A DNA stretch of 36,167 bases from Thauera phenylacetica B4P (GTDB lineage: Bacteria > Pseudomonadota > Gammaproteobacteria > Burkholderiales > Rhodocyclaceae): contig NZ_AMXF01000020.1 of assembly GCF_000310225.1 (NCBI RefSeq), positions 1 to 36,167 of the forward strand, read 5' to 3'. Below the pieces are notes generated by a model. That model was not told where the DNA came from, did not search any database, and worked only from the letters and a program-made list of their open reading frames with translations. The translations under genes were made by a program, and so were the position numbers. Positions 14,715 to 35,528 of the stretch are shown in pieces. Numbering within the stretch: the first letter of the stretch is position 1; each line of letters begins with the position of its first letter.

Positions 14715-14906
14715 ATGCCGTTGGCAGAAATCACCATGATCGAAGGCCGCACCGAAGACCAGAAGCGCGCCGTGATCGAGAAAGTCACCCAGGCGCTCGT
14801 CGAGGCAGTGGGCGCGCCGATCCAGACCGTCCGCGTCGTCATCCGCGAGGTGCCCAAGACCAACTGGGGCATCGGCGGGGTGTCGGCAAAAGACCTCGGA
14901 CGCTGA
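14715..14906 (+). CDS. dmpI: 4-oxalocrotonate tautomerase, DmpI
   Basis: 63 residues, the standard length. It converts 2-hydroxymuconate to 2-oxo-3-hexenedioate in the oxidative branch. After Met removal the N-terminus is Pro, the catalytic base, followed by LAEITMIEGRTEDQKRAVI; the arginine-bearing segment VRVVIREVPKTNWGIGG is intact. AAGGAGGGG precedes the ATG. Its partner enzymes DmpC and DmpH are encoded 13 kb away in the other block. Confidence 0.95.
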   Translation: MPLAEITMIEGRTEDQKRAVIEKVTQALVEAVGAPIQTVRVVIREVPKTNWGIGGVSAKDLGR

Positions 14907-18302: not shown

Positions 18303-18438
18303 CACGCGATCCTCCACTCGGGTTTGCTCACGTGCGATTGAAACCGGCGTTCCGTGCTCATGCGCTTCTCCTCTCCGCCTGGCGTGCAGGCTGTCTCGCT
18401 CTCTGTCGGGCGAAGCCGGCTTCTTGATGTGCCGTTCT

Positions 18439-19389: not shown

Positions 19390-19416
19390 TGTCGCTCCTG
19401 ACGGGGTGGGCCGCGC

Positions 19417-20427
19417 TCAGACGCTGGCGGCGAACTTCTCGTAGTGGAAGCTGTTCGGTTCGACCTTGCGCTCGCGCAGGTCGTGGGCGACAGCCTCGAC
19501 CATGGGCGGGGGGCCGCACAGGTAGATGTCGACCTTGCCCTCGTTGAGGTGGGCGGGCTCGATGTGGGCGGTGACGTAGCCCTTCTTCGGCCAGCTGCTG
19601 TCGTCGGCGACCACGCACACGTCGTAGGTGAAGTTGGGCAGCGCCGCCTTGAAGGCGTCCAGGCGCTCGAGCTCGACCACGTCGGCGTCGGTGTTCACCC
19701 CGTAGATCAGGTGCACCGGGTGCGCGCTGCCGCCGGCGGCGACGAGCTTGTCGAGCATGGCGAGGAAGGGCGCGAGGCCGGTGCCGCCGGCGAGCATCAG
19801 CACCGGGCGGGCGACGTCGCGCAGGTAGAAGCTGCCGATCGGGCCGGCGAGCCTGATGGTGTCGCCGGCCTTCGCGGCGCCGGTGAGGTAGCCGCTCATC
19901 AGGCCGTTGGGCACGTTGCGGATGAGGAAGCTCACCTTGCTGTCGGCGGGCATCGAGCTGAACGAGTAGGCGCGCGTCTGCTCGGTGCCGGGCACGGTGA
20001 GGTTGGCGTACTGGCCGGGCAGGAAGGCGAGCTTGGCGATGCCTTCGCCCTGCAGCACCAGGGAGAGCGTGCTCGGCGAGAGCTGGCGCACCTCGGCCAC
20101 GGTGGCGGTGAGGGTGGCGTGCTTGATCTTGCACACCTCGGACGAGGCGGGCACGTTCACCACGCAGTCGCTCTTGGGGTGCATCTGGCAGGTGAGGACG
20201 TAGCCGAGCTTGGCCTCTTCCTCGCTCATGGCGTCGTCGATGTAGAAGCCGAGCTCGTACTTGCCCGATTCGGCCTTGCACTTGCAGGCGCCGCAGGCGC
20301 CGTCGCGGCAGTCGATGGGGACGTTCACGCCCTGGCGATAGGCCGCGTCGGCCACCGTCTCGGTGGCGTTGCAGTCGATGAAGCGGGTGACGCCGTCCTC
20401 GAAGTTCAGCGCGATCTTGAATGTCAT
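19417..20427 (-). CDS. benC: Benzoate 1,2-dioxygenase reductase, BenC
   Basis: 336 residues. It passes electrons from NADH via FAD and [2Fe-2S] to the BenAB oxygenase. N-terminal ferredoxin domain with C40, C45, C48 and C80; FAD-binding RAYSFSSMP; NAD-binding GGTGLAPFLAML; C-terminal CGPPPMVEAV. The frame is open to 20475, but ATG 20427 gives the family N-terminus (MTFKIALNFEDGVTRF) and has GGGAGA upstream. 66 nt separate it from benB. Confidence 0.95.
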   Translation of the reverse strand: MTFKIALNFEDGVTRFIDCNATETVADAAYRQGVNVPIDCRDGACGACKCKAESGKYELGFYIDDAMSEEEAKLGYVLTCQMHPKSDCVVNVPASSEVCKIKHATLTATVAEVRQLSPSTLSLVLQGEGIAKLAFLPGQYANLTVPGTEQTRAYSFSSMPADSKVSFLIRNVPNGLMSGYLTGAAKAGDTIRLAGPIGSFYLRDVARPVLMLAGGTGLAPFLAMLDKLVAAGGSAHPVHLIYGVNTDADVVELERLDAFKAALPNFTYDVCVVADDSSWPKKGYVTAHIEPAHLNEGKVDIYLCGPPPMVEAVAHDLRERKVEPNSFHYEKFAASV

Positions 20428-20493
20428 GGTTGTCTCTCCCGGTTGGGGCGGGGTCGCCCGCGCCGTTGCCGGCACGGTGCCCCGCCCTCGTTG

Positions 20494-20982
20494 TCAGACG
20501 TGGTAAACGTCGATGACGTGGCGGATGTAGTCGGTCTTCAGGACGACCTTCTTGTCCTTGATCAGCGGGCTCGCGCCGGACACGTCCAGGGTGTAGTAGC
20601 TGGTGCCGCAGAAGTGGTCGGTGTGGTGGTAGCGCACGCTCATGGTGTGCCAGTTGAAGCGCAGCTTGACCGTCTTGTCGTTCTGCTCGACCACCTCGAT
20701 GTTGCTGATGTGGTGGTTCGTGCGGGTGTCGGGGATGGTCGCGCTCGAGCGCTCGGTACGGATACGGAATACGCGGTCTTCCAGGCCGGAACGGCGGCCG
20801 TACCAGATCAGCGAGATCTCGGACTGCGGATCTTCGGTCAGCTCGCCGTCGTCATCCCAGGCCGGCATCCAGAAGGTGCAGTTCTCGTCGTACATCGCCA
20901 GCCACTCGTCCCACTCGCGGTCGTCCAGGTGGCGAGCCTCACGATACAGGAAGGCGCACAGGTTCTCGTAGGAAATGCTCAT
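20494..20982 (-). CDS. benB: Benzoate 1,2-dioxygenase small (beta) subunit, BenB
   Basis: 162 residues, ring-hydroxylating dioxygenase beta subunit (NTF2-like fold), structural partner of BenA in an alpha3-beta3 oxygenase. Typical segments are EARHLDDREWDEWLAMYDENCTFWMPAW near the N-terminus and TSYYTLDV toward the C-terminus. GGAGAC precedes the ATG; only 15 nt from benA. Confidence 0.95.
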   Translation of the reverse strand: MSISYENLCAFLYREARHLDDREWDEWLAMYDENCTFWMPAWDDDGELTEDPQSEISLIWYGRRSGLEDRVFRIRTERSSATIPDTRTNHHISNIEVVEQNDKTVKLRFNWHTMSVRYHHTDHFCGTSYYTLDVSGASPLIKDKKVVLKTDYIRHVIDVYHV

Positions 20983-20997
20983 CTCGTAAGTCTCCGA

Positions 20998-22338
20998 TTA
21001 TGCGTTCTTGGCTTCGGCTTCGGCGGCCTTGCGGATCTGCTCGAGCCAGTAGGTGTGCTGGGCGACGTAGAGGCCCTCGTCCTCGGTCTTGACGCCGGAC
21101 AGGATGGGCTTGAGGCCGATCTTGTCGGCTTCCTCGTCCGGGCCTTCGACCCAGTGCGTGGCGCCGCGCGACATGTCGTTCCATTCCAGCGCACGACCCA
21201 TGAAGCCTTCCTGGCAGGCGCGGAATTCCTCGAGGTCGTCCGGCGTGGCCATGCCCGAGGCGTTGAAGAAGTCCTCGTACTGGCGGATGCGGCGCGTGCG
21301 CGCCTCGGCCGACTCGCCCTTGGGCGCGATGCAATAGATCGTGACCTCGGTACGGTTCACGTCCAGCGGGCGGAGAACGCGGATCTGCGAGCTGAACTGG
21401 TCCATCAGGTACACGTTCGGGTACAGGCACAGGTTGCGCGAGTTGCCGATCATCCAGTCGGCCTTGGCTTCGCCGAACTCGGCCACCAGGCGGTCGCGCT
21501 GTTCCATCAGCGGACGGTCTTCGGGGTTGTCCCAGCGCGTCCACAGCAGCAGGTGGCCGTTCTCGAACGAGTACGAGCCGCCGCCCTTCTTGGCCCAGCC
21601 GCCGGCGCTCATGGCCTTGATGTCGTCGCCGGCGTCGCGGCTCTTGCGCTGCGCCTGGGTGGCGGCGTAGTTCCAGTGTACGGCGGTGACGTGGTAGCCG
21701 TCGGCGCCGTTCTCGGCCTGCAGCTTCCAGTTGCCTTCATAGACGTAGGTCGAGGAGCCGCGCAGCACTTCCAGGCCCTCGGGCGACTGGTCGACGACCA
21801 TGTCGATGATCTTCTTCGATTCCCCCAGATAGTCCTCGAGCGACTGTACGTCCGGGTTCAGGCTGCCGAAGAGGAAGCCGCGGTAGGACTCGAAGCGCGC
21901 GATCTTCTTGAGGTCGTGCGAGCCCTCGCAGTTGAAGCCCTCGGGGTAGCCGGTCTCGGTGGGGTCCTTGATCTTCAGCAGCTTGCCCGAGTTGTTGAAG
22001 GTCCAGCCGTGGAAGGGGCAGGTATAGGTGGCCTTGTTGCCGTGCTTGAAGCGCGCCAGCGTGGCGCCGCGGTGAGCGCAGGCGTTGATGAAACAGTTGA
22101 GCTGGTTGTCCTTGTTGCGGGTGATGAACACCGGCTGACGACCGATCTTGGTCGTGTAGTAGTCGTTGATCTTCGGCAGCTGGCTCTCGTGGGCGAGATA
22201 GATCCAGTTGCCTTCGAAGATGTGCTTCATCTCGAGGTCGAACAGCTCGCGGCTGGTGAACATCTCACGCTTGCAGCGGAAAAGCCCTTTTTCCTTGTCC
22301 TTCTCGAGGAGTGAGTCCAGATATTCCGTAGTGATCAT
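20998..22338 (-). CDS. benA: Benzoate 1,2-dioxygenase large (alpha) subunit, BenA
   Basis: 446 residues, catalytic subunit that dihydroxylates benzoate to the cis-diol. Rieske [2Fe-2S] ligands C87, H89 (CAHRGATL) and C107, H110 (CPFHGW). Mononuclear iron ligands H216 and H221 with bridging D213 ([12 protein letters not shown]). Toluate dioxygenase (XylX) is a close relative, so substituted benzoates may also be used. CAGGAG precedes the ATG. First gene of the operon, divergent from the 22612 operon across a shared XylS/BenR control region. Confidence 0.95.
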
Positions 22339-22611: not shown

Positions 22612-25600
22612 ATGTCATCCGGCAAGCAAATCTCCAACACGTTCACCCAGGAAGAAGGAGACATCCACCTGGGCGGCATCGACGCGATCGTCCGCCTGAC
22701 CCTCGACCAGGTGCGCACCGACGCCCGTCGCGGGCTCAAGACAGGCATGTTCGTCTCCGGCTACCGCGGCTCGCCCGTCGGCATGCTCGACGCCGCGCTG
22801 ATCAAGCAGCAGAAGCTGCTGGTGCAGAACCACATCCACTTCGTCGACGGCATCAACGAGGACCTCGCCGCCACCGCGGTGTGGGGCACGCAGATGCTGC
22901 ACACCGTCGGCAAGCAGAAGTTCGACGGCGTCACCGGCATGTGGTACGGCAAGGCGCCGGGCGTGGACCGCTCGGGCGACGCGCTCAAGCACGCCAACTA
23001 CACCGGCATCGCCAAGAACGGCGGCGTGCTCGCGATCGCGGGCGACGACCCGAGCTGCAAGAGCTCCTCGCTGTGCTCGCAGTCAGAGCCGATGCTGTTC
23101 CACGTCGGCATCCCCTCGCTGTACCCGGGCAACGTCCAGGAGATCCTCGACTACGGCCTGCACGGCTACCAGATGTCGCGCCTGGGCGGGCTGTGGGTGG
23201 GCATGAAGATCGTCACCAACGTCGCCGACGGCACCGGCACCGCCAGCGTGTCGCCCGAGCGCCTGAACTTCGTCACCCCCGACCTCGAGTTCGACGGCAA
23301 GCTGTTCACGCCCAACATGAACCTGGGCATGAACGTGCGCGTCGAGGCGCTGGAGATGGAGCAGTCGCTGTACACCCGCCGCCTCGAGGTGGCCAAGCGC
23401 TACGCCCGCGCCAACAACCTCAACAACGTCGTCTTCCCCAACCCCGGCGCCTGGATCGGCATCATCACCGCGGGCAAGACCTACAACGACCTCAACCAGG
23501 CCTTCCTCGAGATGGGCCTGGACGACGCGGCGCTGCGCCGCTACGGCATCCGCATCCTCAAGATGGGCATGCTGTTCCCGATGGAGCCGACCATCGTGCG
23601 CGAGTTCGCGCAGGGTCTGGAAGAGATCTTCGTCATCGAGGAGAAGCGCCCCTTCCTGGAGATGTTCGCCAAGCAGGTGCTCTACGGCATGGCCAACGCG
23701 CCGCGCATCGTGGGCAAGTTCGACGAGGAAGAGAAGGAGCTGCTGCCGCACTACGGCGAGTTCGAGTCCGACATCATCGTGCGCGCGCTGCTCAAGCGCC
23801 TGTCGCGCAAGACCCGCATCGAATCGGCCGAGAACTGGCTCAAGCGCCTGGACGAGATCCACTCGCGCAACAAGCTGCCGACCGCGGTGCGCACCGCCTG
23901 GTTCTGCTCGGGCTGTCCGCACAACTCGTCCACCCAGGCCCTCGACGGCAGCATCGTGTCGGCCGGCATCGGCTGCCACACCATGGCGATGTGGATGGGC
24001 CGCAACGTGGTCATGGGCACCCACATGGGTGCCGAGGGCACGCAGTGGATCGGCATGGCGCCCTTTACCGAGGCGCAGCACATCTTCCAGAACATGGGCG
24101 ACGGCACCTACGCCCACTCGGGCAGCCTGGCGATCCGCTACGCGGCCTCGACCGGGGTGAACATCACCTTCAAGCTGCTGCGCAACGCCCACACCTCGAT
24201 GACCGGCGGACAGGCCATCCAGGGCGAGGTCCCGGTGACCAACATGGTCTCCGACCTGCTCGCCAACGGCGTCAAGAAGATCATCGTCACCACCGACGAG
24301 CCCGCGCGCTTCAACGGCGTGCAACTGCCCGGCGGCACCGAGGTCTGGCACCGCGACCGCATCGAGGAGGCGCAGCGCGTGCTCGCCGCCACCCCGGGCT
24401 GTACCGTGCTGCTGCACGACCAGGAGTGCGCCGCCGAGCTGCGCCGCGCGCGTAGCCGCGGCAAGGCCGACGAGCCGGTCGAGGTCACGGTCATCAACGA
24501 GCGCGTGTGCGAAGGCTGTGGCGACTGCGGCGAGAAGTCGAACTGCATGTCGGTCGAGCCGGTGCAGACCGAGTTCGGCCGCAAGACCCGCATCCACCAG
24601 TCCTCGTGCAACAAGGACTTCAGCTGCGTGAAGGGCTTCTGCCCGTCCTTCCTCACCATCACCCCGCACCCGGCCCCGGCCAGCGAGGGCGCGCCCAAGA
24701 AGAAGAAGGGCCGCATCCCCGCGCTCGAGCGCGAGCTGCCGGCGCCGGTCAACAAGGTCGATGACAGCCTGGGCTTCGGCATCCACGTCATGGGCATCGG
24801 CGGTACCGGCTCGGTGACCGTGGTGGCGACGCTGGCGCGTGCCGCCCGCCTCGAAGGCAAGCACGTGATCGGCCTCGACCAGACCGGCCTGGCGCAGAAG
24901 GGCGGCGCGGTGATCTCCGACATCAAGATCACCCACGCCCCGTTCAAGGGTTCGAACAAGATCTCGGACGGCCGCGCCGACCTGTATCTGGGCTTCGACA
25001 TCCTCAACGCCACCGACCCGAAGAACCTCGACAAGTGCAACCCGGAGCGCACCATCGCGGTCGTGTCCACCACCCAGACCCCGACCGGTCAGATGGTGAC
25101 CAACCGCAAGGCGCTGTTCCCGGCCACCAGTGGTCTCACCGGCGGCATCGACCGCGTCACCCGCAAGGAGCACAACGTGTTCCTCGACGGCGAGGCGCTG
25201 GCCGCGGGCCTGTTCGGCGATGCCATGGCGACCAACAACTTCATGGTCGGCGTGGCCTTCCAGGCCGGCACCATCCCGCTCGCGGCCGAGTCGATCGAGG
25301 AAGCCATCCGCCTGTCCGGCGTGGCGGTGGACATGAGCCTGGCGGCCTTCCGCTGGGGCCGCATGGCGGTGGTCGATCGTGCGTTCGTCGAAGCCGAGGT
25401 GGCGCGCCAGAAGCCGGGCGGCAAGGTGGTGGTGCTCAACAAGGCGCCGCAGCTGTCGCCGGCCGCGCGTGCGATCGTCGATTCGATCGGCGCCAGCGGC
25501 GAGGTCAAGCGCCTGGTCGAGGTCCGCGTGCCCGAGCTCATCGCCTTCCAGGACGAGGCCTACGCCAAGCGTTACGCCGAGGTCGTCAAGCGCGTGGTCG

Positions 25601-26154
25601 CGGGCGAGCAGAAGGCGGCGTCGTCGTCCAGGCTCGCCGAGGCGGCAGCCCGCTACCTGTACAAGCTGATGGCCTACAAGGACGAGTTCGAGGTCGCCCG
25701 CCTGCACACCGACCCGGCCTTCCTCGCCGAGCTCGACGCGCAGTTCCCGAATGGCTACTCGGTCAAGTACAACCTCGCGCCCCCGCTGCTGTCCAAGCCG
25801 GATCCGGTCACCGGTCATCCGCAGAAGAAGCAGTTCGGCGAGTGGATGTTCAAGGCCTTCAAGCGCCTGGCCGGCCTGAAGCGGTTCCGCGGCAGCTCGC
25901 TCGATGTGTTTGGCAAGACCGAGGAGCGTCGGACCGAGCGTCAGCTGATCGAGGAGTACATCCAGCTGCTCGACCAGATCCTCGCCAGGCTCAGCCCGGT
26001 GAATCACGCCGCGGCGGTTGCGCTGGCGAGCGTGCCCGACGAGATCCGCGGCTTCGGCCACGTCAAGGAGAAGAACCTCGCCGCGGCCCGCGAGCTGCAG
26101 GCGGCGCGCCTGAAGGCCTTCAACGAGGCGCAGCAGGAACGGCAGGTGGCCTGA
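22612..26154 (+). CDS. Fused indolepyruvate:ferredoxin oxidoreductase-like 2-oxoacid oxidoreductase
   Basis: 1180 residues, a fusion of the IorA and IorB functions. The family decarboxylates 2-oxoacids (arylpyruvates in characterised members) with TPP and CoA and reduces ferredoxin. Order: pyrimidine-binding domain from the N-terminus (GYRGSPVGMLD), TPP domain with GDG (496-498) and a following RN, iron-sulphur segment with C633, C636, C639, C645, C666, C672 and C677, gamma-type domain (about 722-900; GIGGTGSVTVV, DQTGLAQKGGAV), and a C-terminal helical domain (DUF6537-like) typical of fused members. ATG 22612 has AAGGGGAAGGA upstream. The gene ends 1 nt before a ferredoxin gene and lies under a BenR-type promoter. 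The real substrate is unknown. Confidence 0.88.
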   Translation: MSSGKQISNTFTQEEGDIHLGGIDAIVRLTLDQVRTDARRGLKTGMFVSGYRGSPVGMLDAALIKQQKLLVQNHIHFVDGINEDLAATAVWGTQMLHTVGKQKFDGVTGMWYGKAPGVDRSGDALKHANYTGIAKNGGVLAIAGDDPSCKSSSLCSQSEPMLFHVGIPSLYPGNVQEILDYGLHGYQMSRLGGLWVGMKIVTNVADGTGTASVSPERLNFVTPDLEFDGKLFTPNMNLGMNVRVEALEMEQSLYTRRLEVAKRYARANNLNNVVFPNPGAWIGIITAGKTYNDLNQAFLEMGLDDAALRRYGIRILKMGMLFPMEPTIVREFAQGLEEIFVIEEKRPFLEMFAKQVLYGMANAPRIVGKFDEEEKELLPHYGEFESDIIVRALLKRLSRKTRIESAENWLKRLDEIHSRNKLPTAVRTAWFCSGCPHNSSTQALDGSIVSAGIGCHTMAMWMGRNVVMGTHMGAEGTQWIGMAPFTEAQHIFQNMGDGTYAHSGSLAIRYAASTGVNITFKLLRNAHTSMTGGQAIQGEVPVTNMVSDLLANGVKKIIVTTDEPARFNGVQLPGGTEVWHRDRIEEAQRVLAATPGCTVLLHDQECAAELRRARSRGKADEPVEVTVINERVCEGCGDCGEKSNCMSVEPVQTEFGRKTRIHQSSCNKDFSCVKGFCPSFLTITPHPAPASEGAPKKKKGRIPALERELPAPVNKVDDSLGFGIHVMGIGGTGSVTVVATLARAARLEGKHVIGLDQTGLAQKGGAVISDIKITHAPFKGSNKISDGRADLYLGFDILNATDPKNLDKCNPERTIAVVSTTQTPTGQMVTNRKALFPATSGLTGGIDRVTRKEHNVFLDGEALAAGLFGDAMATNNFMVGVAFQAGTIPLAAESIEEAIRLSGVAVDMSLAAFRWGRMAVVDRAFVEAEVARQKPGGKVVVLNKAPQLSPAARAIVDSIGASGEVKRLVEVRVPELIAFQDEAYAKRYAEVVKRVVAGEQKAASSSRLAEAAARYLYKLMAYKDEFEVARLHTDPAFLAELDAQFPNGYSVKYNLAPPLLSKPDPVTGHPQKKQFGEWMFKAFKRLAGLKRFRGSSLDVFGKTEERRTERQLIEEYIQLLDQILARLSPVNHAAAVALASVPDEIRGFGHVKEKNLAAARELQAARLKAFNEAQQERQVA

Positions 26155-26155
26155 C

Positions 26156-26515
26156 ATGAACCTCCCGGCGCCCAAGGTCTTTCACCAGGTCACCCTCGTC
26201 GAGACCGGTGAGGTGTATCGCTGCCGCGAGGACGAGACCCTGCTCGCAGGCATGGAGCGGCTCGGCAAGCGCGGCATCCCGGTGGGGTGCCGCGGCGGTG
26301 GCTGCGGCGTGTGCAAGGTGCAGGTCGAGGCCGGCGAGTACAGCAAGCGCGTGATGAGCCGGGCCTACGTCAGCGCCGAGGAGGAGGCCGCCGGCATCGT
26401 CCTCGCCTGCCGGGTGAAGCCGCTGTCGGACATCCGCCTGGCGGTGCTCGGCAAGATGAAGAAGAACGTGTGCGCGACGCCGCCAGCGGCGGACGCGGGC
26501 GCAAGTCAGCCGTAG
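26156..26515 (+). CDS. xylT: [2Fe-2S] ferredoxin, XylT/DmpQ type
   Basis: 119 residues, plant-type ferredoxin with cluster cysteines in GCRGGGCGVC (C-x4-C-x2-C) and a fourth in LACRV. XylT and DmpQ re-reduce the oxidised iron of catechol 2,3-dioxygenase, and the next gene encodes that enzyme. It starts 1 nt after the stop of the 2-oxoacid oxidoreductase, so the two are translationally coupled and it may also be the acceptor of that enzyme. No other stand-alone ferredoxin is in the window; the phenol operon lacks dmpQ. Confidence 0.88.
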   Translation: MNLPAPKVFHQVTLVETGEVYRCREDETLLAGMERLGKRGIPVGCRGGGCGVCKVQVEAGEYSKRVMSRAYVSAEEEAAGIVLACRVKPLSDIRLAVLGKMKKNVCATPPAADAGASQP

Positions 26516-26521
26516 AAACAG

Positions 26522-26578
26522 GCGGGCGCGACCCGCCGCATGAGAACCCGGGGAGCGCGGGTCGCAGAACGCGCCCGC
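26522..26578 (+). other. Intercistronic hairpin ferredoxin/catechol dioxygenase
   Basis: Inner stem GCGACCCGC (26528-26536)/GCGGGTCGC (26557-26565), extended by GCGGGC (26522-26527)/GCCCGC (26573-26578). There is no T-run. Confidence 0.45.
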
Positions 26579-26612
26579 AACCCCGTCCGTGACCCCTGAG
26601 AGGAGATGCAAG

Positions 26613-27542
26613 ATGGCAACTACCGGAGTGATGCGTCCTGGCCACATCCAGCTGCGCGTGCTGGACCTGGACGAAAGCACGACTTTCTACAAGGACGTGC
26701 TCGGCCTCGTCGAGACCGGCCGCGATGCCGCCGGCCGCGTGTATTTCAAGGCCTGGGACGAGCGCGACCACAACAGCGTGGTGCTGCGCCAGGCCGACCG
26801 CGCCGGCGTGGACCTGATCGGCTTCAAGGTCAAGGACAAGGCCACGCTCGAGCAGCTCGACAAGGACCTGCAGGCCTACGGCGTCGCCACCGAGCGCGTC
26901 CCCGCCGGCGAGCTGCTCGAGACCGGCGAGCGCGTGCGCTTCACCATCCCGACCGGCCACGTCCTCGAGCTCTATGCCGACAAGACCGACGTCGGCAACG
27001 GCCAGCCCTACACCAACCCGGACCCGTGGATCCCGGCGGCCGAGCACGGCATCGGCCCGCACCGCTTCGACCACTGCCTGCTCTACGGCCCGAACCTCGA
27101 GCAGACCCTCGAGCTCTTCACCCAGGTGCTCGGCTTCCACCTCGTCGAGCGCGTGCTGATGGAAGACGGCAAGTCGCTGCTGGCGATGTTCATCTCCTGC
27201 TCGCACAAGGCGCACGACCTGGCCTTCGTCTGCCATCCGGAGCCGGGCAAGCTGCACCACGTGTCCTTCCTGCTCGGCAGCTGGGAGCAGGTGCTGCGCG
27301 CGGCCGACATCATGTCGATGAACCGCGTCTCGATCGACATCGGCCCCACCCGCCACGGCATCACCCGCGGCACCACGATCTACGCCTTCGACCCCTCGGG
27401 CAACCGCTTCGAGACCTTCTCCGGCGGCTACGAGAGCTATCCCGACCACCAGCCGATCACCTGGACCTTCGACGAAGTCGGCCCGGCGATCTTCTACCAC
27501 GACCGCAAGCTCAACGAGCGCTTCCTGAGCGTGGTGACCTGA
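26613..27542 (+). CDS. xylE: Catechol 2,3-dioxygenase (extradiol, type I.2.A), benzoate-operon copy
   Basis: 309 residues, co-linear with the copy at 10102-11031 (about 75% identical by hand count). Iron ligands H154 (RFDHCLLYGP), H215/H216 (GKLHHVSF) and E267 (NRFETF) are all kept. Start ATG 26613 follows GAGAGGAG; an open frame extends to 26589, but that extension is not in the paralogue. The 3' part shares an almost identical 132-nt tract with the other copy. It follows a XylT-type ferredoxin gene, as in TOL plasmids. Confidence 0.96.
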   Translation: MATTGVMRPGHIQLRVLDLDESTTFYKDVLGLVETGRDAAGRVYFKAWDERDHNSVVLRQADRAGVDLIGFKVKDKATLEQLDKDLQAYGVATERVPAGELLETGERVRFTIPTGHVLELYADKTDVGNGQPYTNPDPWIPAAEHGIGPHRFDHCLLYGPNLEQTLELFTQVLGFHLVERVLMEDGKSLLAMFISCSHKAHDLAFVCHPEPGKLHHVSFLLGSWEQVLRAADIMSMNRVSIDIGPTRHGITRGTTIYAFDPSGNRFETFSGGYESYPDHQPITWTFDEVGPAIFYHDRKLNERFLSVVT

Positions 27543-27552
27543 TCCGGTTCGC

Positions 27553-27575
27553 GGCCCGGCGCATCGCGCCGGGCC
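27553..27575 (+). other. Intercistronic hairpin catechol dioxygenase/dmpC
   Basis: A perfect 10-bp stem GGCCCGGCGC/GCGCCGGGCC with loop ATC, 11 nt after the dioxygenase stop. No T-run, so read-through is expected. Confidence 0.5.
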
Positions 27576-27685
27576 TGCGCCCGCACCCACCCCCGACCCC
27601 ATCCCCGACGCCGCCCGCCCGACGAGGCCACGACGACAAGCGGCACTACAATCCAGATACGTTCGAAAACGCAACGGGAGAAATC

Positions 27686-29146
27686 ATGATCGCTGACAAG
27701 ATCCTCAACTTCATCGACGGCGCATACGTCGCCACCGACAAGTGGTACGAAAACCGCAACCCGATCAACAACAAGGTGATCGGCATGGTCGCCGAAGCCG
27801 GCGAGAAGGAAGTCGACGCCGCCGTCAAGGCCGCCAAGGCCGCGCTGAAGGGCCCCTGGGGTTCGATGTCGCTGCAAAAGCGCATCGAGCTGCTCGAGGC
27901 GCTGGTGGTCGAGATCAACAACCGCTTCGACGACTTCCTCGAGGCCGAGTGCGCCGACACCGGCAAGCCCAAGAGCATGGCCTCGCACGTGGACATCCCG
28001 CGCGGTGCGGCCAACTTCAAGGTCTTCGCGGACATGGTCAAGAACGTCCCGACCGAGTTCTTCGAGATGACCACGCCCGACGGCGGCAAGGCGATCAACT
28101 ACGGCTATCGTCGCCCGGTCGGCGTGGTCGGCGTGATCTGCCCGTGGAACCTGCCCCTGCTGCTGATGACCTGGAAGGTCGGCCCGGCGCTGGCCTGCGG
28201 CAACACCGTGGTCGTCAAGCCCTCGGAAGACACCCCGCGCACCGCCGCGCTGCTCGGCGAGGTGATGAACAAGGTCGGCATCCCCAAGGGTGTCTACAAC
28301 GTGGTCAACGGCTTCGGCGCCAACTCCGCCGGCGCCTTCCTGACCGCCCACCCGGACGTCGACGCGCTCACCTTCACCGGCGAGACCCGCACCGGCGAGG
28401 TCATCATGAAGTCGGCGGCCAACGGCTCGCGCCCGGTGTCGCTGGAGATGGGCGGCAAGAACGCCGCGATCGTGTTCGCCGACTGCGACTTCGACAAGGC
28501 CATCGAAGGCACCCTGCGCTCCGTGTTCCTGAACTGCGGCCAGGTCTGCCTGGGTACCGAGCGCGTGTATGTCGAGCGCCCGATCTTCGACAAGTTCGTC
28601 GCCGCCCTGAAGGCCGGCGCCGAAGGCATGAAGATCGGCGTGCCGGATGATCCGGCCGCCAACTTCGGCCCGCTGGTCAGCAAGAAGCACCAGGAGAAGG
28701 TGCTGTCCTACTACAAGGTCGCCGTGGAAGAGGGCGCGACCCTGGTCACCGGCGGTGGCGTGCCCGACATGCCGGGCGAGCTCGCCGATGGCTGCTGGGT
28801 CCAGCCGACCATCTGGACCGGCCTGCCGGAGACCGCCCGCGTGATCAAGGAAGAGATCTTCGGGCCGTGCTGCCACATCGCCCCCTTCGACGCCGAGGAC
28901 GAAGTGCTGGAGAAGGCCAACGACAACAAGTACGGCCTGGCCTGCGCGATCTGGACGCAGGACGTCTCGCGCGCGCACCGCGTCGCGCAGAAGATGGAAG
29001 TGGGCATTTCCTGGGTGAACAGCTGGTTCCTGCGCGACCTGCGCACCCCCTTCGGCGGCTCCAAGCAGTCGGGCATCGGCCGTGAAGGCGGCGTGCACTC
29101 GCTCGAGTTCTACACCGACCTGAAGAACGTCTGCATCAAGCTGTAA
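27686..29146 (+). CDS. dmpC: 2-hydroxymuconic semialdehyde dehydrogenase, DmpC
   Basis: 486 residues, aldehyde dehydrogenase superfamily. It oxidises the ring-fission product to 2-hydroxymuconate with NAD+ (the oxidative branch). N155 (CPWNLP), K178 (VVKPSE), E254 (LEMGG) and nucleophile C288 (GQVCLG) are intact. The frame is open far upstream through the dioxygenase gene, but ATG 27686 with GGGAG 5 nt before gives the family N-terminus (MIADKILNFIDGAYV). The hydratase gene follows after 14 nt. Confidence 0.96.
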   Translation: MIADKILNFIDGAYVATDKWYENRNPINNKVIGMVAEAGEKEVDAAVKAAKAALKGPWGSMSLQKRIELLEALVVEINNRFDDFLEAECADTGKPKSMASHVDIPRGAANFKVFADMVKNVPTEFFEMTTPDGGKAINYGYRRPVGVVGVICPWNLPLLLMTWKVGPALACGNTVVVKPSEDTPRTAALLGEVMNKVGIPKGVYNVVNGFGANSAGAFLTAHPDVDALTFTGETRTGEVIMKSAANGSRPVSLEMGGKNAAIVFADCDFDKAIEGTLRSVFLNCGQVCLGTERVYVERPIFDKFVAALKAGAEGMKIGVPDDPAANFGPLVSKKHQEKVLSYYKVAVEEGATLVTGGGVPDMPGELADGCWVQPTIWTGLPETARVIKEEIFGPCCHIAPFDAEDEVLEKANDNKYGLACAIWTQDVSRAHRVAQKMEVGISWVNSWFLRDLRTPFGGSKQSGIGREGGVHSLEFYTDLKNVCIKL

Positions 29147-29160
29147 TAGGAAGATCGTAC

Positions 29161-29943
29161 ATGGACCAGAAAACCATCGAAGCCCTGGGCGATTCGCTCT
29201 ACGACGCGCTCGTCGCGCGCACGCCGATCGCGCCGCTGAGCGCCGCGCATCCCGACATGACGATCGAGGACGCCTACCACGTGCAGCAGCGCATGATCGC
29301 GCGCCGCCTCGAGAAGGGCGACCGCGTGATCGGCAAGAAGATCGGCGTCACCAGCAAGGCGGTCATGAACATGCTGGGCGTGCACCAGCCCGACTTCGGC
29401 TACCTCCTCGACAGCATGGTCTTCAACGAGGGCGAGTCGGTCGACATGGACACGCTCATCCAGCCCAAGGCCGAGGGCGAGATCGCCTTCCTGCTCAAGA
29501 AGGACCTGCAGGGCCCGGGCGTGACCGCGGCCGACGTGCTCGCCGCCACCGAAGGCGTCATGGCCTGCTTCGAGATCGTCGATTCGCGCATCCAGGACTG
29601 GAAGATCAAGATCCAGGACACCGTGGCCGACAACGCCTCCTGCGGCGTGTTCGTGCTCGGCGACCAGCTGGTCGACATTGCCGACCTCGACCTCGCGCTC
29701 GCCGGCATGGTGCTGGAGAAGAACGGCGAGATCGTCGTCACCGGCGCCGGCGCGGCCACCATGGCCCACCCGGTCAACGCCATGGTGTGGCTGACCAACA
29801 TGCTCGGCTCGCTCGGCATCGCCCTCAAGGCCGGCGACATCGTGCTCTCCGGCGCCATGGGCGCCATGGTCCCGGTGGTGCGCGGCGACAACCTGCGCAT
29901 GACGATCGGCGGCATCGGCGGCTGCTCGGTGCGCTTCGTCTGA
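29161..29943 (+). CDS. dmpE: 2-oxopent-4-enoate (2-hydroxypenta-2,4-dienoate) hydratase, DmpE
   Basis: 260 residues, FAH-like hydratase/decarboxylase family. It adds water to 2-hydroxypentadienoate to give 4-hydroxy-2-oxopentanoate, the substrate of DmpG. Diagnostic segments VIGKKIGVTSKAVMNMLGV, HQPDFGYLLDSMV and the metal region AEGEIAFLLKKDLQGPG, FEIVDSRIQDWKI. It is a distant paralogue of the next gene, with which it forms a complex in the known pathway. AGGAAGA precedes the ATG. Confidence 0.95.
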   Translation: MDQKTIEALGDSLYDALVARTPIAPLSAAHPDMTIEDAYHVQQRMIARRLEKGDRVIGKKIGVTSKAVMNMLGVHQPDFGYLLDSMVFNEGESVDMDTLIQPKAEGEIAFLLKKDLQGPGVTAADVLAATEGVMACFEIVDSRIQDWKIKIQDTVADNASCGVFVLGDQLVDIADLDLALAGMVLEKNGEIVVTGAGAATMAHPVNAMVWLTNMLGSLGIALKAGDIVLSGAMGAMVPVVRGDNLRMTIGGIGGCSVRFV

Positions 29944-29984
29944 CGCGCCCCATCCCCGCCCCCCAATCCAACAGGAAACTTCCA

Positions 29985-30773
29985 ATGAAGCTGAATCAGC
30001 AAACCATCGAACAACTCGCCGAACACCTCGAGAACGCCGAATTGCAGGCCTTCGAAGTGGTGAAGATCACCGAGGCGCATCCCGACATGGACTGGGACGA
30101 CGCCTACGCGATCCAGGCGGAGATCCTGCGCCGCAAGCTGGCGCGCGGCAACCGCGTGGTCGGCCTCAAGGCCGGCCTGACCTCGCGCGGCAAGATGAAG
30201 CAGATGGGCGTCGAAACCCCGGTGTTCGGCTGGCTCGTCGATTACTTCAGCGTGCCGGACGGCGGCGAGATCAAGACCAGCGAGCTGATCCACCCGAAGG
30301 TCGAGCCCGAGATCGTGTTCGTGACCAAGCGCGCGCTCAAGGGTCCCGGCTGCCACATCGGCGCGGTGCTCGCAGCCACCGACTTCGTCATGCCCGGCAT
30401 CGAGATCATCGACTCGCGCTACAAGGACTTCAAGTTCGACCTCAAGAGCGTGATCGCCGACAACTGCTCGTCGACCCGCTTCGTGCTCGGCGGCCAGGCC
30501 GCGCCGGTGGCCGGCCTGGACCTGCGCACCCTGGGCGTGGTGCTCGAGAAGAACGGCGAGCCGGTGGCGGTCGGTGCCGGCGCGGCGGTGCTCGGCCACC
30601 CGGCGGCGGCGATCGCGGCCCTGGCCAACCACCTCGGCGCGCGCGGCGAGGAGATCCCGGCCGGCACCATGATCCTGTCGGGCGGCGTCACCGAGGCGGT
30701 GGCGGTGCAGGCCGGCGACAGCGTGAACCTGCGCATCCAGTCGCTCGGCAGCGTCAGCACCCGTTTCATCTGA
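29985..30773 (+). CDS. dmpH: 4-oxalocrotonate (2-oxo-3-hexenedioate) decarboxylase, DmpH
   Basis: 262 residues, same fold as DmpE. It decarboxylates 2-oxo-3-hexenedioate and works bound to the hydratase. Distinguishing motifs are VGLKAGLTSRGKMKQMGVETPVFG, DYFSVPDGG and HPKVEPEIVFVTK. Start ATG 29985 follows ACAGGAAAC; the longer upstream frame overlaps dmpE and is rejected. Last meta-cleavage gene before the transporter. Confidence 0.95.
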   Translation: MKLNQQTIEQLAEHLENAELQAFEVVKITEAHPDMDWDDAYAIQAEILRRKLARGNRVVGLKAGLTSRGKMKQMGVETPVFGWLVDYFSVPDGGEIKTSELIHPKVEPEIVFVTKRALKGPGCHIGAVLAATDFVMPGIEIIDSRYKDFKFDLKSVIADNCSSTRFVLGGQAAPVAGLDLRTLGVVLEKNGEPVAVGAGAAVLGHPAAAIAALANHLGARGEEIPAGTMILSGGVTEAVAVQAGDSVNLRIQSLGSVSTRFI

Positions 30774-30795
30774 GGCTCCGGGCTTCGTCCCTTTT

Positions 30796-30817
30796 GCGGT
30801 CGCCCCCGGGCGGCCGC
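30796..30817 (+). other. Hairpin between dmpH and the transporter genes
   Basis: GCGGTCGCCC/GGGCGGCCGC (10 bp with one G-T pair), followed by only ATTTC. It may be a leaky terminator lowering transporter expression. It lies in the 156-nt gap before the binding-protein gene; no new promoter was recognised there. Confidence 0.45.
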
Positions 30818-30929
30818 ATTTCATGTCCCGCCGAGGCGCGTCGCACGCCACCGGCGGGCACTCTGTGAGCAGCAAGACGATGCGTCGTCCAGAAGACGCA
30901 CGAACCCAATCCACCTTCAAGGAAGAGAC

Positions 30930-32105
30930 ATGATGAAGAGCACGTTCAAACTCGCCGGCAACCTCGCCCTGACCCTCGCGCTGGCCGCCGCCGGCATCGG
31001 CGCCGCCAACGCGGCCGACAAGGTCAAGGTCGGCCTGATGCTGCCCTACACCGGCACCTACGCGGCGCTCGGCACTGCGATCACCAACGGCTTCAAGCAG
31101 TTCGTCGATGAGAACGGCGGCAAGCTGGGCGGCCGCGAGGTCGAATACTTCACCGTCGACGACGAATCCAACCCGGCCAAGGCCACCGAGAACGCCAAGA
31201 AGCTGGTGTCGCGCGACAAGGTCGACGTGCTGGTCGGCACCGTGCACTCCGGGGTCGCGCTCGCCATGGCCAAGGTGGCCCGCGACACCAAGACCCTGAT
31301 GATCGTCCCCAACGCCGGCGCCAACGATCTCACCGGCCCGCTGTGCTCGCCCTACGTGTTCCGCTCGTCCTTCTCGGCCTGGCAGCCTTCCTACGCGATG
31401 GGTGAGGCGCTGGCGAAGAAGGGCATCAAGAACGTCGCCACGGTGACCTGGAAGTACTCCTTCGGCGAAGAGTCGGTCGCCGGCTTCAAGGAGGCCTTCG
31501 AGAAGGGCGGCGGCAAGCTCGTCAAGGAAATGACGCTGCCCTTCCCCAACGTCGAGTTCCAGCCCTTCCTCACCGAGATCGCCTCGGCCAAGCCCGACGC
31601 GGTGTTCGTGTTCTTCGCCGGCGCCGGCGCGGCCAAGTTCGTCGCCGACTATGCCGCGGCGGGCCTCAAGAACAGCATCCCGCTGTACGGCCCGGGCTTC
31701 CTCACCGACGGCAACCTCGGCGCCATGGGCGGCGCGGGCGAGGGCCTGCTCACCACGCTGCACTACGCCGACGGCCTCACCAACGCCAAGGACGCGGCCT
31801 TCCGCACCAAGTACGCGCAGACCTACAAGCTGCAGCCCGACGTGTACGCGGTGCAGGGCTACGACGCCGCGCAGATGTACGAGGCCGGCCTGAAGGCCGC
31901 CGGCGGTGATCCGGAGAAGAAGGAAGACGTCATCAAGGGCATGGAGTCCGCGAAGATCGACAGCCCGCGCGGCGCCTTCACCCTGTCGAAGGCGCACAAC
32001 CCGGTGCAGGACATCTACATGCGCCAGGTCAAGGGCGACCAGAACGTGATGCTCGAGGTCGTCTCCAAGAGCCTCGAGGATCCTGCCCGCGGCTGCAAGA
32101 TGTAA
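30930..32105 (+). CDS. ABC transporter periplasmic substrate-binding protein (branched-chain amino acid/aromatic type)
   Basis: 391 residues. Signal peptide of about 28 residues ending in GAANA, then a type I periplasmic binding fold (VKVGLMLPYTGTYAALGTAI). Family members bind leucine-type amino acids, amides or aromatic acids. Its place after dmpH and before two permease and two ATPase genes, downstream of a BenR-type promoter, suggests benzoate or a related acid as ligand (inference). AAGGAAGAG precedes the ATG; a second ATG follows immediately. Confidence 0.9.
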   Translation: MMKSTFKLAGNLALTLALAAAGIGAANAADKVKVGLMLPYTGTYAALGTAITNGFKQFVDENGGKLGGREVEYFTVDDESNPAKATENAKKLVSRDKVDVLVGTVHSGVALAMAKVARDTKTLMIVPNAGANDLTGPLCSPYVFRSSFSAWQPSYAMGEALAKKGIKNVATVTWKYSFGEESVAGFKEAFEKGGGKLVKEMTLPFPNVEFQPFLTEIASAKPDAVFVFFAGAGAAKFVADYAAAGLKNSIPLYGPGFLTDGNLGAMGGAGEGLLTTLHYADGLTNAKDAAFRTKYAQTYKLQPDVYAVQGYDAAQMYEAGLKAAGGDPEKKEDVIKGMESAKIDSPRGAFTLSKAHNPVQDIYMRQVKGDQNVMLEVVSKSLEDPARGCKM

Positions 32106-32120
32106 GCCCCCGGCCTCTTA

Positions 32121-32143
32121 GGGGCGGCCCGGCGGGCCGCCCC
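32121..32143 (+). other. Intercistronic hairpin after the binding-protein gene
   Basis: A perfect 10-bp stem GGGGCGGCCC/GGGCCGCCCC with loop GGC. Such hairpins after binding-protein genes commonly protect the upstream mRNA so that the binding protein outnumbers the permease (established for maltose-type operons). Confidence 0.6.
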
Positions 32144-32212
32144 CCAAGTCCCGTTTCTTCTTGAACCCTGATCGATCCTGACAGGCGCATGCCTGCCGGG
32201 AGGGGGAGTGTC

Positions 32213-33079
32213 ATGGATTTCGCAAGCTTTCTGATCCAGACGCTGAACTCGCTGCAGTACGGATTGCTGCTTTTCCTGGTGGCAAGCGGACTGACGCTGG
32301 TGTTCGGCATCATGGGCATCATCAACCTGGCGCACGGTAGTTTCTACATGATCGGCGCCTACCTCGCCTTCGTGCTCACCAGCGCGACCGGCAGCCTGGT
32401 ACTGGCGGTGGTGCTCGGCATCCCGCTGGCGCTGGCCTTCGGCGCCTTCCTGGAGTGGGCGCTGTTCTCCCACCTCTACAAGCGCGACCACCTCGAGCAG
32501 GTGCTGCTGACCTACGGCCTCATCCTCATCTTCGAGCAGCTGCGCAGCCTGCTCGTGGGCGACGATGTGCACGGGGTGGCGATCCCCGCCTTCCTCGACG
32601 CCTCGATCCAGCTCACCGAGGTCATGAGCTACCCGGTGTACCGGCTGGCCATCTCGGTGGTGTGCATCGTGCTCGCGGTCGCGCTCTATTACGTGATCCA
32701 GCGTACCCGCCTGGGCATGATGATCCGCGCCGGCAACGACGACCGCGGCATGGTCGAGGCGCTCGGGATCAACATCAACATGATCTACCGCGTCGTGTTC
32801 GCGCTCGGTGTCGCGCTCGCCGCGCTCGCCGGCATGCTGGCCGCGCCGATCTCGTCGGTGTTCCCGAACATGGGCAGCCACGTGCTGATCATCTCCTTCG
32901 TGATCGTGGTCATCGGCGGCATCGGCTCGGTGTGGGGCGCGCTCGTCGCCGCGCTGATCGTCGGCTTCGCGGACACCTTCGGCAAGGTGCTGGTCCCCGA
33001 GCTCTCCGGCATCGTGGTGTATGTGGTCATGGCGGTGGTCCTGCTGTGGCGCCCCGAAGGCATCCTGAAGAAGGGCTGA
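32213..33079 (+). CDS. livH: ABC transporter permease, LivH family
   Basis: 288 residues, very hydrophobic, about eight membrane helices. Characteristic LTLVFGIMGIINLAHGSFYMIGAY near the N-terminus and the coupling region ALGININMIYR. ATG 32213 follows GGGAGGGGG by about 6 nt; the longer open frame from 32189 is rejected. Pairs with the LivM-type permease encoded 4 nt downstream. Confidence 0.92.
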   Translation: MDFASFLIQTLNSLQYGLLLFLVASGLTLVFGIMGIINLAHGSFYMIGAYLAFVLTSATGSLVLAVVLGIPLALAFGAFLEWALFSHLYKRDHLEQVLLTYGLILIFEQLRSLLVGDDVHGVAIPAFLDASIQLTEVMSYPVYRLAISVVCIVLAVALYYVIQRTRLGMMIRAGNDDRGMVEALGININMIYRVVFALGVALAALAGMLAAPISSVFPNMGSHVLIISFVIVVIGGIGSVWGALVAALIVGFADTFGKVLVPELSGIVVYVVMAVVLLWRPEGILKKG

Positions 33080-33083
33080 GACC

Positions 33084-34049
33084 ATGAACGCAAACGCATC
33101 CCTGATTCCCAAGCTGGTCGCGCTCGCGATCGTGGCCTGCGTGCCGCTGTCGGGCGAGTCCTTCTACATCGAGATCGTCGGCAAGGTGCTGGTGATGGCG
33201 ATCTTCGCCATGAGCCTGGACCTGCTGGTGGGCTTCACCGGCCTGGTCAGCTTCGGCCACGCGGCCTACTTCGGCATCGCCGCCTACGCGGTGGCGATCC
33301 TGAGCCCCGAGTACGAGGCGGCCAGCCTGTGGTACGTGCTGCCCGCCTCGGTCGGCCTGTCCGCGCTCGCCGCCTTCGTGATCGGGCTCTTCGTGCTGCG
33401 CACCAAGGGCATCTATTTCATCATGGTGACGCTGGCCTTCGCCCAGATGGCCTACTTCATCTTCCACGACACCCCGCTCGGCGGCGGCTCGGACGGCAAG
33501 TACCTCAACAACAAGCCCTCGGCCTCCATCTTCGGCTGGGAGCCGTTCGACCTCACCAACGAAGTGCACATGTTCTACTTCATCCTCGCGGTGCTGGTGC
33601 TGGTGTACCTGTTCCTCGCCCGCGTGCTGCAGTCGCCCTTCGGCCGCGTGCTGGTGGGCATCAAGAGCAACGAGCACCGCATGCAGTCGCTCGGCTACCT
33701 CACCTTCCGCTACAAGCTCGGCGCCTTCACGCTGGCCGGCGCGCTCGGCGGTCTGGCGGGCTTCCTCTACGCCGTGCTGTTCGGCTTCGTGACCCCGGAG
33801 CTGCTGTCCTGGCACGAGTCCGGCAACGTGCTGCTGATGGTGATCCTGGGCGGCATGGGCAACCTCGCCGGCGCGATCGCCGGGGCCTTCGCCTTCGAGG
33901 CGATGCGCGAGATCTTCGCCGACATCACCAAGTACTGGCAGCTGCTGATGGGCGGCGTGATCGTGGCGGTCGTGCTGTTCCTGCCGGGCGGGCTGGCCGG
34001 TGTTCCGGGTCGCATCAAGCGTGCCCTGCAGGGGGGAGAAGCCAAATGA
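33084..34049 (+). CDS. livM: ABC transporter permease, LivM family
   Basis: 321 residues, polytopic membrane protein with the LivM signature SLDLLVGFTGLVSFGHAAYFG and the coupling segment VGIKSNEHRMQSLGY. Its last codons overlap the next start (ATGA at 34046-34049), so the two are translationally coupled. Confidence 0.92.
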   Translation: MNANASLIPKLVALAIVACVPLSGESFYIEIVGKVLVMAIFAMSLDLLVGFTGLVSFGHAAYFGIAAYAVAILSPEYEAASLWYVLPASVGLSALAAFVIGLFVLRTKGIYFIMVTLAFAQMAYFIFHDTPLGGGSDGKYLNNKPSASIFGWEPFDLTNEVHMFYFILAVLVLVYLFLARVLQSPFGRVLVGIKSNEHRMQSLGYLTFRYKLGAFTLAGALGGLAGFLYAVLFGFVTPELLSWHESGNVLLMVILGGMGNLAGAIAGAFAFEAMREIFADITKYWQLLMGGVIVAVVLFLPGGLAGVPGRIKRALQGGEAK

Positions 34050-34822
34050 GCACGACGACGAAGAACGAAGTCCTGCTGCAGGCCGACAGGCTGACCCGTC
34101 GCTTCGGCGGCCTGGTGGCGAACCAGGACATCAGTGTGACGCTCGAGCGGCAGATGATCCACGTGCTGCTCGGCCCCAACGGCGCGGGCAAGTCGACCTG
34201 CATCAACATGCTGTCGGGCGACCTGCCGCCCTCCGAGGGCAGGATCCACTACCTCGGCAAGGACATCACCGCGCTCACTGCGGCGCAGCGCTCGCAGGTG
34301 GGCATCGGGCGCAGCTACCAGCGCACCAACATCTTCCCGCAGTTCACCGTGCTGGAGAATGTGCGCCTGGCCGCGCAGTCGCGCCGCCAGCAGCCGTGGA
34401 GCCTGTTCACCAAGGCCATGGAGCAGAAGTGGGCGCTCGACAAGGCGCGCGCCTGCATCGAGGAGGCCGGACTGGGCAAGCGCGTCGACTGGGTGTCGGG
34501 CGTGCTCAGCCACGGCGAGCAGCGCCAGCTCGAGATCGCCATGGTGCTCTCCACCGATGCGCAGGTGCTGCTGCTCGACGAGCCGCTCGCCGGCATGGGT
34601 TCGGAAGAGTCGGCGAGCATGGTCGAGGTGCTCAAGCGCCTGCGCCAGACGCGCGGCATCCTGCTTGTGGAGCACGACATGGACGCGGTGTTCGCGGTCG
34701 CCGACATGATCACGGTGATGGTCAACGGCCAGTTGCTGGAGTGCGGCCCGCCCGCGCAGATCAAGGCCAGCGTGGCCGTCCAGCAGGCCTATCTGGGTAC
34801 GGAGGACAGCTTCCATGTCTAA
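34046..34822 (+). CDS. livG: ABC transporter ATP-binding protein, LivG family
   Basis: 258 residues. Walker A GPNGAGKST, signature LSHGEQRQLEIA (a usual LivG variant of LSGGQ), Walker B VLLLDEPLAGM, switch His in VEHDM. Start ATG 34046 overlaps the livM stop; the stop overlaps the livF start by 8 nt. Confidence 0.93.
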   Translation: MSTTTKNEVLLQADRLTRRFGGLVANQDISVTLERQMIHVLLGPNGAGKSTCINMLSGDLPPSEGRIHYLGKDITALTAAQRSQVGIGRSYQRTNIFPQFTVLENVRLAAQSRRQQPWSLFTKAMEQKWALDKARACIEEAGLGKRVDWVSGVLSHGEQRQLEIAMVLSTDAQVLLLDEPLAGMGSEESASMVEVLKRLRQTRGILLVEHDMDAVFAVADMITVMVNGQLLECGPPAQIKASVAVQQAYLGTEDSFHV

Positions 34823-35528
34823 CATGCTGCTCGAAGCCAAGGAAGTTCATACCTACTACGGCGCGAGCCACATCCTGCACGGCATCGACTTCAACATCCG
34901 CGAAGGCGAGGGCATCGCCCTCATGGGCCGCAACGGCATGGGCAAGTCCACGCTGATCAAGAGCATGCTCGGCATCGTGCGCCCCCGGCATGGGCGTGTG
35001 CTGGTGCGGGGCGACGACTACACCAAGGCGCGCACCTACCAGACGGCACAGCAGGGCATCGCCTACGTGCCGGAAGGGCGCGGCATCTTCAAGAGCCTGA
35101 CCGTGCGCGAGAACCTGCTGATGTCGGCGCGCGCCGGCGTCGACGGTCGCCGCGAGTGGACCTTCGACCGCGTGATGGAGACCTTCCCGCGCCTGGGCGA
35201 ACGCATCAACAACGGCGGCTGGCAGCTCTCGGGCGGCGAGCAGCAGATGCTCACCATCGGCCGCGCGCTGATGACCAACCCCGACCTGCTGATCCTGGAC
35301 GAGGCCACCGAGGGCCTCGCCCCGCTGATCGCCATGGAGATCTGGCGCATCGTCAAGGAGATCCGCAGGACCGGCATCGCCACCGTGATCGTGGACAAGA
35401 ACCACGGCGCGGTCACCAGCATCTGCGACCGCGCGATGATCCTGGTGAAGGGGCAGGTCGTGTTCGACGGCACCAGCGACGAGATCCGCGCCCAGCCCGA
35501 GCTGATCCAGAAGCACCTCGGCGTCTGA
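34815..35528 (+). CDS. livF: ABC transporter ATP-binding protein, LivF family
   Basis: 237 residues. Walker A GRNGMGKST, signature LSGGEQQ, Walker B LLILDEATEGL, H-loop replaced by the family-typical VDKNHG segment. Starts inside livG. It completes a binding protein/LivH/LivM/LivG/LivF set. Confidence 0.93.
   Translation: MSNMLLEAKEVHTYYGASHILHGIDFNIREGEGIALMGRNGMGKSTLIKSMLGIVRPRHGRVLVRGDDYTKARTYQTAQQGIAYVPEGRGIFKSLTVRENLLMSARAGVDGRREWTFDRVMETFPRLGERINNGGWQLSGGEQQMLTIGRALMTNPDLLILDEATEGLAPLIAMEIWRIVKEIRRTGIATVIVDKNHGAVTSICDRAMILVKGQVVFDGTSDEIRAQPELIQKHLGV

Follow-up and report, generated by a model that had tools for sequence, protein, structure and literature searches.

The textbook lower meta-cleavage pathway of aromatic compounds is usually reconstructed with the aldolase DmpG and the acetaldehyde dehydrogenase DmpF. 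The routes for benzoate, phenol, phenylpropionate and 3-hydroxyanthranilate employ different ring-cleaving enzymes and converge at 2-oxopent-4-enoate. A 2-ketoacid ferredoxin oxidoreductase was encountered in a 2019 regulon study by Suvorova and Gelfand. That study (PMC6449761) places the protein (COG4231) under BenR/AphS control in Thauera MZ1T and Dechloromonas aromatica. The accessible parts of another report (PMC7793797) assign EdcC of Novosphingobium tardaugens and KC8_05315 of Sphingomonas KC8, both of estrogen degradation, to the indolepyruvate ferredoxin oxidoreductase (IOR) family; EdcC acts on the estrogen meta-cleavage product in vivo, as reported there with deletion and complementation. 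EdcC, as described there, shows that enzymes of this family are able to use meta-cleavage products in an aerobic organism. Here we analysed a 36,167-nt stretch of DNA from Thauera phenylacetica B4P (contig NZ_AMXF01000020.1; hereafter the window), in which an operon divergent from benABCD carries, in this order, genes for a fused 2-oxoacid:ferredoxin oxidoreductase (the IOR), a XylT-type ferredoxin, catechol 2,3-dioxygenase (C23O), 2-hydroxymuconic semialdehyde dehydrogenase (HMSD), 2-oxopent-4-enoate hydratase (DmpE), 4-oxalocrotonate decarboxylase (DmpH) and an ATP-binding cassette (ABC) transporter. We propose that the IOR provides an alternative terminal step, 4-hydroxy-2-oxovalerate + coenzyme A (CoA) -> 3-hydroxybutyryl-CoA + CO2 + reduced ferredoxin, bypassing DmpF and DmpG (F/G), and judge the chance that it does so to be about even.

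The first-pass annotation had read the first three genes as a 2-oxoacid:ferredoxin oxidoreductase, a XylT-type ferredoxin and a C23O, and family searches confirmed all three (NF009589, PF00111 and TIGR03211). The IOR belongs to the fused indolepyruvate ferredoxin oxidoreductases (NF009589, 1632.1 bits, cut-off 816, residues 4-1177) and shows the Pfam domains POR and DUF6537; against the profiles of two-subunit arylpyruvate enzymes it scored below the cut-offs (TIGR03336, 159.5 against 650.9 bits; TIGR03334, 52.7 against 205.8 bits). Cysteines C432, C435, C455, C606, C633, C636, C639, C645, C666, C672 and C677 were invariant in 36 aligned proteins and, judged from the alignment, are the putative ligands of iron-sulfur centres. 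Foldseek matched the AlphaFold2 model, which is of low confidence, best with pyruvate:ferredoxin oxidoreductases (PFORs), indicating a PFOR-like fold. The mean predicted local distance difference test score (pLDDT) of the model was 69.5, and because residues 78-161 and 429-488 fell below 50, the active site was illegible. Searched against solved structures, the IOR sequence gave no match at E 0.001. The genome holds further IOR genes besides this one.

One scan of genome contigs yielded 79 IOR loci, 76 at 69-98% identity (best segment) and three at 44-46%. Genes in these relatives were called with our own codon-usage script, by which short genes, such as that of the tautomerase, may be missed; some counts refer to 74 IOR genes and others to 76 loci. 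In a tree of 42 rows, 33 were taken from the IOR group (the window plus 32 of the 76 loci), and these formed a single clade (support 100/100) on a long stem. Meta-pathway or mhp genes were found in the fetched stretch at 57 of the 76 loci: 32 with benzoate genes, 6 with phenol hydroxylase, 4 with mhp genes (L036, L048, L056 and L055, the last with ben genes too), 3 with 3-hydroxyanthranilate genes (L065, L077 and L078) and 12 with lower-pathway genes only. The remaining 19 showed none, mostly through contig ends. In family searches, L036 proved to encode HcaE, MhpB and MhpD, L056 to encode MhpD together with an MhpA-type hydroxylase, and L077 to encode 3-hydroxyanthranilate dioxygenase; certain E/H-like proteins of L077 scored below the family cut-offs. 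The lower intermediate is all that these differing upper pathways have in common, and this favors a function of the IOR at that level.

Eight other fused IORs (L082-L084, and L291-L295 from plasmids) had no adjoining meta-pathway genes; the association with the meta pathway therefore belongs to this clade. The family name and the fused relatives at 44-46% identity would agree with an enzyme that oxidizes arylpyruvates in amino acid breakdown and lies here by chance, but the context of those eight enzymes and the other IOR genes of the genome make this highly improbable, and arylpyruvates were rejected as likely substrates. Of the substrates suggested in the first-pass annotation, a meta-pathway 2-oxoacid is likely, whereas an aromatic 2-oxoacid found no support.

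To avoid sampling by IOR, we drew a second sample with DmpH (TIGR03218), which matched 15 of 399 genomes of the order and 107 of 395 genomes of the family; 160 regions were fetched among the matches listed, with 162 H genes from 116 genomes. Where DmpH had 4 kb or more of sequence to its left and right (121 loci), it was accompanied by F/G only in 89, by IOR only in 24, by both in 1 and by neither in 7 (114, 33, 1 and 14, respectively, for all 162 H genes). The Fisher value for this alternation was 4.5e-18, a figure that ignores common descent. At the locus with both (L175), DmpG belongs to an adjoining phenol cluster, like in the window, whose E/H operon is not of the canonical DmpEFG kind: F/G are absent across 22612-35528 and lie at 12611-14591. 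Among the 7 loci with neither, those inspected showed an IOR on the opposite strand (L225), transporter-like genes (L141 and L142), or neither IOR nor F/G nearby (L228 and L229). Both kinds of operon occur together in 14 genomes. In the IOR sample, 48 of the 57 meta/mhp loci had no F/G in the fetched stretch; same-strand F/G were present at 8, five of them of the window type (L006, L007, L008, L009 and L011), and L028 has F/G on the strand opposite to IOR. F/G and IOR alternate at the level of the operon. The gene for 4-oxalocrotonate tautomerase, short and possibly missed in places, was seen in 71 of 89 F/G-type against 6 of 25 IOR-type regions (L131-L290).

The constant partner of the IOR clade is the hydratase that makes 4-hydroxy-2-oxovalerate. 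It was present at 32 of 34 IOR-type DmpH loci, both misses having H at a contig end, and was retained in L036 and L056 though H is absent there. The commonest genes directly upstream of IOR were those of decarboxylase H (25 of 74) and 4-oxalocrotonate tautomerase (12 of 74). Four of the 50 IOR genomes tested were without DmpG (G022, G042, G048 and G050), and in these DmpF was also absent at E 1e-10, whereas three comparison genomes have it; the hydratase was over the cut-off in G050, matched by family but below the dmpE cut-off in G042 and G048, and not found in G022. In G050 (apparently identical with G066; 99% complete, 1% contaminated), which had no DmpG over the cut-off and no DmpF, the phenol meta operon ends E-H-IOR (L069 and L138).

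EdcC is a precedent for an IOR that would take the ring-fission product itself, or 4-oxalocrotonate, as its substrate; however, HMSD, H and E are retained in IOR operons, and the ring-fission products of the mhp and 3-hydroxyanthranilate routes differ, so that we consider this very improbable.

Genes on the other side of IOR bear on the product. A MaoC-type gene directly followed IOR in 25 of 74 cases; we call it PhaJ by resemblance, and the MaoC domain PF01575 was present in all four of the PhaJ-like neighbors scanned. Within 6 kb downstream on the same strand, a class I polyhydroxyalkanoate (PHA) synthase (TIGR01838) is encoded at 10 of the 76 loci, a crotonase-type hydratase at 7 and a phasin-like protein at 6, and the set crotonase/PhaJ/PHA synthase adjoins IOR in Variovorax (L025, L030 and L033) and in L077. 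In L031, L039, L071 and L079, which have no meta genes nearby, IOR is likewise followed by PhaJ. An aerobic PFOR for meta-pathway pyruvate would agree with the PFOR-like fold, but pyruvate requires DmpG, which is mostly missing from IOR-type operons, and the company of PhaJ and PhaC would be unexplained; we hold such a function to be quite unlikely. Given the operon-level alternation with the aldolase, pyruvate was rejected as the likely main substrate.

Other neighbors were also observed. In L035, L039, L041, L071 and L079, the IOR-PhaJ pair adjoins ribonucleotide-reductase-like and SelD-like genes, apart from meta operons. In Curvibacter (L065, 3136-6708), genes for electron transfer flavoprotein and acyl-CoA dehydrogenase lie upstream of IOR-PhaJ; they are candidates for a possible electron route.

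XylT-type ferredoxins reactivate inactivated C23O. The ferredoxin of the window is of this type, with a plant-type [2Fe-2S] domain (PF00111) and C23O 98 bases downstream, and is the sole strong match in the genome, the next-best matches having 30-36% identity and two of them lying within reductases of the window. The tight coupling claimed in the first-pass annotation was borne out, the ferredoxin ATG (26156) being one base past the IOR stop (26154), and the gene order it described recurs: the gene immediately after IOR is XylT in 7 of 74 cases (L006-L009, L011, L044 and L045). The conclusion drawn there, that the IOR oxidizes a 2-oxoacid such as pyruvate to reduce XylT and thereby reactivate C23O, found no support as the purpose of the enzyme. 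IOR-XylT is a minority arrangement: 67 of 74 IOR genes have no XylT directly after them, and in L010 and L072 C23O follows IOR directly without XylT. In the 160 DmpH-sampled regions, 34 of 61 XylT genes touch C23O, 18 touch DmpP and 6 touch IOR (overlapping counts), and regions that lack IOR contain XylT just as often (38 of 89 F/G-type regions against 15 of 25 IOR-type regions). Moreover, the phenylpropionate and 3-hydroxyanthranilate clusters with IOR use ring-cleaving enzymes other than C23O, and the alternation with F/G would be left unexplained. A repair module as the main function is thus distinctly improbable and was rejected, since XylT tracks C23O and phenol hydroxylase, not IOR. Because the two genes are coupled, XylT may be one electron acceptor of the IOR in the window operon, yet the distribution of the clade would not be explained by that.

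Several observations weigh against the proposed reaction on 4-hydroxy-2-oxovalerate. In the DmpH sample, ben genes accompanied 21 of 25 IOR loci and none of 90 F/G loci; the alternation is therefore confounded with the upper pathway in that sample, although the phenol, mhp and 3-hydroxyanthranilate loci argue against a benzoate-only role. PhaJ was found at none of 25 IOR-type loci there, so the IOR-PhaJ pair is bound to certain lineages and absent from the sample of the window's family. F/G lie within the IOR gene string in L043, L058 and L027 (in the last only a cut DmpF end is visible). DmpG over the cut-off was present somewhere in 46 of the 50 IOR genomes tested, and the single DmpG of the window's genome lies in the phenol cluster, 8 kb upstream of IOR; the IOR is thus not the sole route in most genomes, and a genome-wide replacement of F/G was rejected, the replacement holding per operon. 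No meta genes were near IOR in L029, L031, L039, L046, L071 and L079, each flanked by 5 kb or more at either end. In L031 (10001-14137), from a Bradyrhizobiaceae genome, the IOR-PhaJ pair stands beside transporter and regulator genes, and a search of that genome detected no hydratase, DmpF or DmpG, so the substrate of this IOR must come from elsewhere. Finally, the L048 operon has a hydrolase, then IOR and PhaJ, without the hydratase. On account of this operon, 2-oxopent-4-enoate is a possible substrate: the IOR would act one step earlier, giving but-3-enoyl-CoA (vinylacetyl-CoA), then isomerized to crotonyl-CoA, and PhaJ would be compatible with such a product too. Nevertheless, the hydratase is kept in nearly all IOR-type DmpH loci and in the hydrolytic operons without H, and the L048 genome has a hydratase elsewhere; we regard the earlier step as unlikely.

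Taken together, operon alternation, the company of the hydratase, the PhaJ/PHA genes, G050, monophyly and the precedent of EdcC support 4-hydroxy-2-oxovalerate as the probable substrate. In the window, BenABCD would convert benzoate to catechol and C23O would open the ring; HMSD and H would yield 2-oxopent-4-enoate, which E would hydrate to 4-hydroxy-2-oxovalerate. The IOR, using thiamine diphosphate, CoA and the iron-sulfur centres of the enzyme itself, would carry out the oxidative decarboxylation to 3-hydroxybutyryl-CoA, CO2 and reduced ferredoxin, avoiding free acetaldehyde, and beta-oxidation would turn the ester into two acetyl-CoA. XylT would serve C23O and might, in addition, accept electrons from the IOR. 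(S)-4-hydroxy-2-oxovalerate is expected to give the (S)-ester; where PhaJ and PhaC adjoin IOR, crotonase and PhaJ would convert it via crotonyl-CoA to (R)-3-hydroxybutyryl-CoA for the PHA synthase and polyhydroxybutyrate. The genes with their families, the clade, the gene order and the alternation of the operons are what the data show; substrate, product, stereochemistry and electron acceptor are inferred.

That a dedicated IOR clade forms a third aerobic ending of meta-cleavage, leading aromatic carbon into beta-oxidation or polyhydroxybutyrate with no need for an aldolase, for acetaldehyde or for reduction by PhaB and delivering low-potential electrons in an aerobe, seems to us evenly balanced between true and false. 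If true, the pathway has a different ending in many benzoate operons of Thauera, Zoogloea, Variovorax and their relatives, and genome-scale models send the carbon and electrons of such strains along the wrong route. It would also mean a direct route from aromatic pollutants to a bioplastic precursor, and a concrete substrate for a widespread, wrongly named enzyme family.

The features of the window are collected in the table below. The name HMSD is our assumption from operon position and family, with no family-search match behind it. E and H are present in single copy in the genome. About 8 kb upstream of IOR, past the ben genes, a phenol cluster carries a second C23O, DmpF, DmpG and 4-oxalocrotonate tautomerase; HMSD, E and H were absent from it (12611-14906) and are found only in the ben-side operon (27686-30773), so the breakdown of phenol and benzoate must share them here. 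The second C23O (10102-11031) is 75% identical to the first and has no XylT gene of its own. A hemerythrin-domain protein ends the operon (about 35156-36124), and COG3945 also appears in the regulon in the accessible parts of PMC6449761. A set of tRNA-Ala, tRNA-Glu and tRNA-Asp is repeated in tandem in two copies (1336-2053).

Table. Features of the window and the basis of their assignment
Feature	Position	Strand	Basis
IOR, fused 2-oxoacid:ferredoxin oxidoreductase, 1180 aa	22612..26154	+	ATG 22612, TGA 26152-26154
XylT-type [2Fe-2S] ferredoxin, 119 aa	26156..26515	+	Fer2 PF00111; ATG one base past IOR stop
Catechol 2,3-dioxygenase (C23O)	26613..27542	+	TIGR03211 451 bits, cut-off 320
2-hydroxymuconic semialdehyde dehydrogenase (HMSD, DmpC-like)	27686..29146	+	open frame; cluster conserved in 48 loci
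2-oxopent-4-enoate hydratase (DmpE)	29161..29943	+	TIGR03220 465.6 bits, cut-off 408.8
2-oxo-3-hexenedioate (4-oxalocrotonate) decarboxylase (DmpH)	29985..30773	+	TIGR03218 483.5 bits, cut-off 350.55
Branched-chain-type ABC transporter genes	30930..35528	+	open frames; "benzoate ABC transporter" in the accessible parts of PMC6449761
benABCD	18613-22338	-	benA TIGR03229 over cut-off; other genes by position and homology
AraC-type regulator	17331-18317	-	position/homology; beside benABCD, divergent from IOR
DmpF acetaldehyde dehydrogenase	12611-13534	+	97.7% identical to L006 protein over TIGR03215 cut-off
DmpG aldolase	13554-14591	+	TIGR03217 563.7 bits; sole copy in genome

Fused arylpyruvate IORs such as Ior1 of Phaeobacter share the domain architecture and come from an aerobic host; their substrates are aromatic, and they are expected to form a separate clade. 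In the open-licence PubMed Central literature, we found no publication proposing the reaction of an IOR with 4-hydroxy-2-oxovalerate. The canonical DmpE-DmpG-DmpF pathway has the same intermediates up to this compound, and E and H are present in the IOR operon; the IOR-type operon differs in that F/G are absent and a ferredoxin-linked oxidoreductase occupies their place. By description, the operon in PMC6449761 is the same as ours (COG4231, aphQ, aphBCEH, ABC transporter and COG3945, divergent from benABCD), but in the accessible parts of that study COG4231 is listed without function, and the alternation with F/G and the link to PhaJ are not reported. EdcC, likened here by description, not by sequence, takes a product of steroid ring A as its substrate, immediately after the ring is cleaved, and works without DmpE/H; nevertheless, in the accessible parts of its report it likewise belongs to the IOR family, lies beside an extradiol dioxygenase and is proposed to join a meta-cleavage product to CoA with loss of its carboxyl group.

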